From positions 186,001-250,000 of the forward strand of contig NZ_CP045644.1 of the NCBI RefSeq assembly GCF_009498455.1: DNA of 64,000 nucleotides, written 5' to 3'. The notes under the pieces were generated by a model. That model searched no databases. It was not told where the DNA came from and worked only from the letters and a program-made list of their open reading frames with translations. Both the position numbers and the translations under genes were made by a program. Each line of letters starts with the position of its first letter. Positions within the stretch are counted from its first letter, which is position 1. Positions 52,633-54,512 of the stretch are shown piece by piece. This stretch comes from Variovorax paradoxus (GTDB lineage: Bacteria; Pseudomonadota; Gammaproteobacteria; Burkholderiales; Burkholderiaceae_C).

Positions 52633-52652
52633 GCGGCGGCTCAGGCCGCCGC
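52633..52652. terminator. stem-loop between convergent mrcA and cyaY
   Basis: GCGGCGGC (52633-52640) pairs perfectly with GCCGCCGC (52645-52652) around TCAG, which contains the cyaY stop codon. Its position 16 bp after the mrcA stop fits a terminator, but there is no T-tract on either side, and the right arm is in the cyaY 3' coding end (an Ala-rich tail), so it may be partly a coding coincidence. Confidence 0.4.
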
Positions 52653-52973
52653 GAACACCAGCGGCAGCCCCGCCTGCAGCGTCGCCTCGCGCGAGAGATT
52701 GCTGAAAAACTCTTCGCCGGTCTTGGTGTCCACCCACACCCGGCCGTCGTGCCGGTAGTGGTAGCCGCCGGAGCGTGCCGCCAGCCAGATTTCGTGCAGC
52801 GGCTTCTGCAGGTTCACGATCAGCTGGCTGCCGTTCTGGAACGACATCGTGATCATCCCGCCGACCCGCTGGTTGTCGATGTCGGCGTCGGTCGCGTCGT
52901 TGATGCGGTCGCAGGCCTGCTCGATGGCGGCAAGCGCCGCCTCGGCGCGGTCCATGTACTCGGTGTCGGTCAT
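52641..52973 (-). CDS. cyaY: iron donor protein CyaY (frataxin)
   Basis: CyaY binds iron and modulates iron-sulfur cluster assembly with IscS. The 110-residue length is normal. The acidic first helix ([27 protein letters not shown]) with [28 protein letters not shown] and the W-containing [29 protein letters not shown] are diagnostic. The ATG at 52971-52973 is only 12 bp from the divergent lptM-like start, so each gene's control region must extend into the other's coding sequence. Confidence 0.95.
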
Positions 52974-52979
52974 TACAAT
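52974..52979 (+). promoter_or_regulatory. -10 box of the lptM-lysA frame, probable leaderless start
   Basis: TACAAT (5 of 6 consensus) lies 6 bp upstream of the ATG at 52986, within the 12-bp gap to cyaY. A start site 6-8 bp after the box would fall on the ATG itself, giving a leaderless or nearly leaderless mRNA; no Shine-Dalgarno sequence fits in the gap. The -35 match is poor. Confidence 0.45.
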
Positions 52980-52985
52980 TTCAGC

Positions 52986-53235
52986 ATGTTGAATGTTCGC
53001 CAAATTCTAGTGAGCGCTCGCGCCCGCACCGCGCTCATGGTCTGCCTTGCCGCCGGCGCGGCCGGTCTTGCGGCGTGCGGACAGCGCGGCGCGCTCTACC
53101 TGCCGACCGATCCGGCGGCCGACCAGCGCGCCACCTTGCCCCAATTGCTCACGCCCGGCGGCTCCTCCAAAGCCTCCGACAACGAAGCGGCCCCCAAGCC
53201 CGCCGCAGCGAGCAGCGCCCCACCTCTCCCCAGAA
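52986..53235 (+). other. lptM: LptM-like small lipoprotein segment (5' part of the lysA frame)
   Basis: LptM (YifL) is a short lipoprotein that helps the LptD translocon mature. The first 40 residues have a signal and lipobox LAAC (Cys31) followed by GQRGALYLP, which matches the diagnostic C-G-Q-K/R-G-x-LYLP start of mature LptM. An Ala/Pro/Ser-rich tail follows. Normally a stop codon would separate it from lysA, but none exists in this frame, so its 3' end here is arbitrary. A TGA overlapping the ATG at 53236 is in a different frame from the LptM start. Confidence 0.72.
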
Positions 53236-54512
53236 ATGACGACGAACACCCCCTGCCCGGCCATCCCCACATCGCCCAACGCGACGGTGCCCTGCACGTC
53301 GAGGGCGTCGCGCTCGACGCGCTGGCGCGCGCGCACGGCACGCCGCTGTTCGTCTATTCGAAGCAGTGGATGCTCGACGCCCTGGCCGCCTACCAGCGCG
53401 GCTTCGAGGGCCGCGAGGCGCTGATCTGCTACGCGATGAAGGCCAATTCGTCGCTCGGCGTGCTGCGCGTGTTCGCCGAGGCCGGCTGCGGTTTCGACAT
53501 CGTCTCGGGCGGCGAGCTGTCGCGCGTGCTCGCCGTCGGCGCCGATCCCCGGAAAATCATCTTCTCGGGCGTCGGCAAGACCCGCGCCGAGATGCGCCAG
53601 GCGCTGGCGGCCGGCATCGCCTGCTTCAACGTCGAGAGCGAGGCCGAGCTCGACGTGCTCAACGAGGTCGCGCTGGCCGAGAACACGCGCGCGCCGATCA
53701 GCATCCGCATCAATCCGAACGTCGATCCGAAGACGCACCCGTACATTTCCACCGGCCTCAAGGGCAACAAGTTCGGCATCGCGCACGACCGCGCGGTGCA
53801 GGCCTACCAGCACGCCGCCCGCCTGCCGGGCCTCGAGGTGGTCGGCATCGACTGCCACATCGGCTCGCAGATCACCGAAGCCTCGCCCTACCTGGACGCC
53901 TGCGACCGCGTGCTCGACCTGGTGGAAGCCATCGAGGCGGCCGGCGTGCCGATCCATCACCTGGACTTCGGCGGCGGCCTGGGCATCGACTACAACGGCG
54001 AGGTGCCGCCCAAGGCCGATGCGCTGTGGCAGCAGCTGCTCGCCAAGCTCGACGCGCGCGGCTTCGGCCAGCGCAAACTGGTCATCGAACCCGGCCGTTC
54101 GCTGGTCGGCAATGCCGGCGTGTGCGTGACCGAGGTGCTCTACACCAAGCCCGGCGAAGACAAGAACTTCTGCATCGTCGACGCGGCCATGAACGACCTG
54201 CCGCGCCCCGCGATGTACCAGGCCTTCCAGAAGATCGTGTCGCTGCGCGAACGCGCCGGCGACGCGCCGACCTACGACGTGGTGGGCCCGGTCTGCGAAA
54301 GCGGCGACTGGATCGGCCGCGACCGCGCGCTCAACGTGGTGGCCGGCGATCTGCTGGCCGTGCTGTCGGCGGGTGCGTACTGCATGAGCATGGCCAGCAA
54401 CTACAACACGCGCGGCCGTGCGGCCGAGGTTCTGGTGAGCGGCGCCACAGCGAAGCTGATCCGCCGTCGCGAGACGATGGAAGACCAGCTGCGCGCCGAA
54501 ATCGACGGTTGA
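52986..54512 (+). CDS. lysA: diaminopimelate decarboxylase LysA, in frame with an N-terminal LptM-like lipoprotein segment
   Basis: LysA decarboxylates meso-diaminopimelate to lysine. The LysA part (from about residue 90 to 508) is complete: [14 protein letters not shown]-lysine in [37 protein letters not shown], and [11 protein letters not shown] with [13 protein letters not shown]. The open frame, however, begins 88 codons earlier with an LptM/YifL-like lipoprotein start (lipobox LAAC, then GQRGALYLP). A lipoprotein signal would export LysA and is not expected. An ATG at 53236 in another frame would give MTTNTP then LPGHPH, a typical LysA N-terminus, if the C-run at 53249-53253 had one more C. 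So this is a frameshift, a sequencing error or a true fusion; a separate lysA start is most likely. Confidence 0.85.
53236..53258 (+). other. probable frameshift or slippage site before lysA
   Basis: The ATG at 53236-53238 (within ATGA) is followed by ACGACGAACACC and a run of five C (53249-53253). The frame from this ATG is not the LysA frame. One extra C would join MTTNTP to [12 protein letters not shown] and the whole LysA body. Candidates are a sequencing miscall in the C-run, a real one-base deletion, or -1 slippage. Confidence 0.6.

Follow-up and report, generated by a model that had tools for sequence, protein, structure and literature searches.

The lptM-lysA fusion found in the assembled genome of a strain of the soil bacterium Variovorax paradoxus is probably the product of consensus errors in C-rich stretches, as judged by comparison of its sequence with those of related genomes. 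The window, a stretch of 64,000 nucleotides, spans 186001-250000 in genome G000, on a single contig of 7,288,087 bases. Compared base by base with the closest genome included in the analysis (G032; about 94% DNA identity over the region), the lptM-lysA locus of the window shows exactly two such losses, each of one base at a C run and separated by about 30 bases, which bring together, in the assembly, the frames of what appears to be an ordinary Variovorax lptM-lysA pair.

A single open frame joins lptM and lysA

The assembled sequence contains a stop-free frame of 508 codons (52986-54512, plus strand), the translation of which runs from the start of an LptM lipoprotein into a complete LysA ending at the TGA at 54510-54512. 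The first-pass annotation had described such a frame from the letters alone, and translation together with profile matches confirmed it; the lipobox and GQRGALYLP motif at its start, the ATG at 53236 within ATGA, and the five-C run at 53249-53253 were likewise found where that annotation had placed them. Beyond the start of lptM, the same frame stays open as far as a GTG at 52749 (587 aa), across the opposite-strand frataxin/CyaY gene (52641-52973, minus strand; PF01491, 95.9 bits), which is divergent from lptM. No promoter or terminator match was found at 52900-53300. The frame relation of lptM and lysA is the sole unusual feature of the locus, the absence of a stop being unremarkable by comparison with 115 relatives.

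The proximal part of the frame corresponds to lptM (formerly yifL; 52986-53235, plus strand), encoding a small outer-membrane lipoprotein with a signal peptide and a lipobox (LAAC, followed by G) whose cysteine, Cys31, is encoded at 53076-53078, and with the conserved LptM motif directly after it. The product scores above the cut-off of the LptM model NF047847 (31.6 versus 27.7 bits) and below that of the Pfam LptM_cons model PF13627 (23.3 versus 27.3 bits). A stop of its own after a short tail, present in all 111 readable relatives, is missing from the window, where the final lptM codons are read in a different frame. Four close LptM proteins that were opened comprise 67, 82, 83, and 89 residues, and three of the four end in SSAPTSPQK or SSAPGSPQK, the remaining one ending otherwise. 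According to an excerpt of a published study, the LptM sequence that follows the PF13627 region usually has fewer than 70 residues and, outside Enterobacteriaceae, shows poor conservation (PMC10567701).

The distal part is the body of lysA, encoding diaminopimelate decarboxylase (53250-54512, plus strand), which is otherwise intact, without additional frame disruption, and under purifying selection. It carries full-length domains of a PLP-dependent decarboxylase (PF02784 and PF00278, both above cut-off), matches the LysA model TIGR01048 with 512 bits over residues 98-505 of the fused frame, and is the only PF02784 protein of the genome. What the assembled gene lacks is its own start for a cytosolic protein, as the ATG at 53236 is out of frame with the body. 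Pairwise, the window and G032 differ in lysA by 49 synonymous and 6 replacement codon changes; when polarised by nine other loci, the changes amount to 21 synonymous and 1 replacement on the window branch, and 26 and 1, respectively, on the G032 branch. The 21:1 ratio on the window branch indicates that LysA was working until very recently or still is, a history that fits an error or a very young mutation and not an old pseudogene.

Two single-base losses at C runs

The first lesion lies in a C run of the lptM tail (53218-53221, plus strand), which is one base shorter than the aligned sequence of G032, where a T is found; the second affects the five-C run just past the lysA ATG (53249-53253, plus strand), which has six C in G032. 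The expected overlap of the lysA start with the lptM stop, ATGA (53236-53239, plus strand), now has both signals out of frame with their own genes. In G032, lptM comprises 82 codons and its TGA overlaps the lysA ATG as ATGA, and the two earlier differences between the window and G032 in lptM are of three bases each. Both suspicions of the first-pass annotation, namely that the lysA start was one C short and that the LptM tail might carry a second change, are thus borne out by this genome.

The frame of lysA is normally two bases out of step with that of lptM, and the two losses align the frames, with the GC-rich DNA supplying no stop. Under the reading that we prefer, consensus error, lptM would in the cell end at the ATGA where lysA begins, and LysA would be a separate cytosolic enzyme. 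The position of the five-C run, 10 bases past the ATG, might also suggest programmed or transcriptional slippage that would give a normal LysA from the ATG at 53236. We consider this extremely improbable and rejected programmed slippage, because the relatives, inspected by eye, have no common C run at the lysA start; moreover, those with an in-frame lysA start need no slip, and the relatives give no hint of regulation at this spot. The origins that had been proposed at first were a miscall, a real indel, or slippage: similar losses in the assembly favour the miscall without proving it, and slippage finds no support.

No such fusion among the readable relatives and listed proteins

Among 116 loci examined, four had no lptM match, and in 111 of the 112 readable lptM-lysA loci a stop lies ahead of the LysA body, the window alone being fused; some genomes are present twice, so the 111 do not represent 111 independent species. 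An in-frame arrangement shared by close relatives, which the first-pass annotation had named, together with reads supporting five C, as what would speak against a miscall, was found in none of the 111. A four-base NTGA overlap of lptM and lysA occurs in 90 of the 111 unfused loci. Most loci (96) have a frame offset of 2 between the two genes; in 10, the window among them, the offset is 0, and in six it is 1. A stop nonetheless separates lptM from lysA in each of the nine relatives whose offset is 0. In one genome (G021, locus L018), the two genes share a frame and a TAA stands directly before the lysA ATG. A split lysA in another genome (L199, G015:C344:89300-91300) proved to be a masked run of N and not a frameshift.

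Given the prevailing offset of 2, losing one base at any two places in this stretch would merge the lptM and lysA frames, and the open frame is for that reason no sign of selection. The idea that it might be one was also rejected on the evidence of the relatives, in most of which the lysA frame also lacks a stop over a long distance: in the 115 relatives, the median length of the open frame ahead of the corresponding point is 91 codons, with at least 20 codons open in 91 and at least 80 in 62 of them.

No LptM-LysA fusion was present among the 120 protein matches listed (the best 120 of 7,999 scored), all of which have 423-431 residues. Recurrence in independent genomes or proteins, as would be expected of a natural fusion, was accordingly found in 0 of 111 relatives and 0 of 120 listed proteins, and a record-level literature search for LptM with lysA, or lppL with lysA and dapF, returned no such fusion. 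These results bear on the possibility of a functional LptM-LysA fusion that has been retained, with the precursor remaining partly cytosolic or with LysA initiated at an internal TTG. LysA is intact and constrained, and two in-frame TTG codons (53136 and 53145) lie upstream of its body; they are the only candidates, as the 40 codons ahead of the body contain neither ATG nor GTG in frame. Intact, too, are the signal peptide and the lipobox, so export would be expected, which, together with the absence of the fusion from relatives and listed proteins, makes a functional fusion highly unlikely. The more specific proposal that the strain's only LysA is the C-terminal domain of an LptM precursor created by the two losses, with a cytosolic share or an internal TTG start sustaining lysine prototrophy, is if anything more doubtful. 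If the losses were real, they would offer a clean example from nature of how an enzyme of biosynthesis can survive within an exported precursor.

Similar lesions elsewhere in the assembly

In all, four cases of genes broken or merged in the assembly were identified (lptM-lysA, yaaA, rluC-HAD, and a SPOR-domain gene); this number is a minimum, since events close to the start of a gene escape the scans. The yaaA gene (PF03883; G000:C1:2925120-2925900, L207:15120-15900) has lost a single C at each of two positions 54 bases apart, in very C-rich DNA; 18 of the 21 genomes searched have a match to it, which extends over two frames in G000 alone and is a single match in each of the other 17. A pseudouridine synthase gene, which we take to be rluC, runs in frame into the next gene, encoding a HAD hydrolase (G000:C1:3039220-3040995, L213:9220-10995). 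The two are joined by a one-base loss (A in G032) in a C-rich stretch, and the downstream ATG stays in frame, unlike that of lysA; in 22 same-genus relatives searched, the listed synthase and HAD matches occupy different frames or are divided by a stop. Finally, a SPOR-domain gene, presumably dedD, is frameshifted in a KPEP repeat, which leaves its SPOR domain in another frame (G000:C1:3235554-3236027, L191:5554-6027). It lies between a Mur-ligase-type gene (presumably folC) and a cvpA-type gene, and G032 is open through it. Ranked by C or G content in 80-base windows, the positions of which were chosen by the analyst so as to contain the lesions, lptM-lysA falls within the top 0.42%, yaaA 0.24%, rluC-HAD 1.3%, and the SPOR gene an unremarkable 11%. 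Lesions in a similar, C-rich context thus recur in yaaA and rluC-HAD, and the SPOR-gene lesion has no such context.

The comparison of G000 with G032 covered 519,229 aligned columns (about 520 kb of 7.29 Mb). In stretches with a C (or G) count of at least 37 per 80 bases, G000 has 5 losses and 0 gains among C/G indels of 1-2 bases, compared with 24 losses and 30 gains below this threshold; the 5-to-0 count is weak, as three of the five are the lysA and yaaA lesions and the bin was picked after the data had been seen. The other two losses in C-rich DNA (2962287 and 3139846) cause no clear gene break. By hand count, C/G runs that differ by a single base from those of G032 are almost equally often shorter (8) and longer (7), and undercalling of homopolymers across the whole assembly was rejected as unsupported outside C-rich stretches. 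The C/G runs of G032 are equal in G000 in 95 of 109 five-base and 12 of 16 six-base cases; the remaining runs are shorter in 16 cases and longer in two, many through substitution within the run.

Two stricter tests were applied to the aligned columns, both of them missing yaaA, which surfaced in the survey of upstream open frames. The first reported 25 frame-changing indels out of 444, of which two rows were opened and most others taken as compensated pairs. The second reported 11 clusters out of 147, all of which were viewed: three are the lptM-lysA, rluC-HAD, and SPOR lesions, and the other eight are, by eye, intergenic or in frame. Two less strict frame scans listed many split ORFs. Most were dismissed unopened, on the grounds that one part had no third-position bias or, in one of the two scans, that protein identity was lower than DNA identity, and the three that were opened are shadow ORFs across intergenic gaps. 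A further, noisy scan led to nine sites being opened, all of which looked natural.

That the isolate has undergone real, recent mutations is unlikely, albeit worth weighing against these data. The C loss would have broken the lysA start, and the loss in lptM, before or after it, would have put LysA in the LptM frame; the cell would then produce LysA solely as the C-terminal part of a lipoprotein precursor, with reduced or no function and perhaps a lysine requirement. Two losses that sum to an open LysA frame do resemble a suppressor, no further frame disruption is seen within lysA, and few other genes are broken across the 520 kb compared. On the other hand, with the offset of 2 that most loci have, two losses of one base anywhere in this stretch suffice and no selection is implied, the same paired-loss signature in yaaA merely breaks the gene, and no readable relative shares the change.

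Discussion

Taking together the two observed base differences, their absence from the relatives examined, and the similar lesions in the assembly, we infer that the two losses are most likely errors rather than mutations. With a uniform error rate, one would rarely expect two independent losses within 30 bases of each other. The coincidence ceases to be a rare one if reliability drops locally in C-rich stretches, as the case of yaaA suggests. Several observations count against this reading. C runs also mutate faster in nature, G032 has T and A, respectively, where a base is missing from the lptM tail and from rluC, so that these two sites do not show a plain undercall of C, the assembly looks clean outside very C-rich stretches, and the C content around the SPOR-gene frameshift is ordinary. 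An annotation that followed the assembled letters would describe a lipid-anchored LysA or a broken lysine pathway, both of which are probably wrong. As the assembly seems to drop single bases in very C-rich stretches, its other fusions and broken genes are equally suspect.

In comparison with known systems, the window product resembles LptM (YifL), a lipoprotein of LPS translocon maturation, in its lipobox cysteine and motif and in its score above the NF047847 cut-off, and differs from it in a tail without a stop that continues into LysA. LysA proteins of relatives start at an ATG or GTG a few codons ahead of the enzyme body, whereas the window has no such in-frame start nearby. Frame-disrupting indel errors in long-read assemblies are described in excerpts of the reports on Kastor (PMC12007338) and Homopolish (PMC8011154). 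As far as these excerpts go, the present case is alike in that small indels disrupt genes or join them although the assembly is good in other respects, and differs in that most, but not all, of the lesions lie in C-rich stretches.
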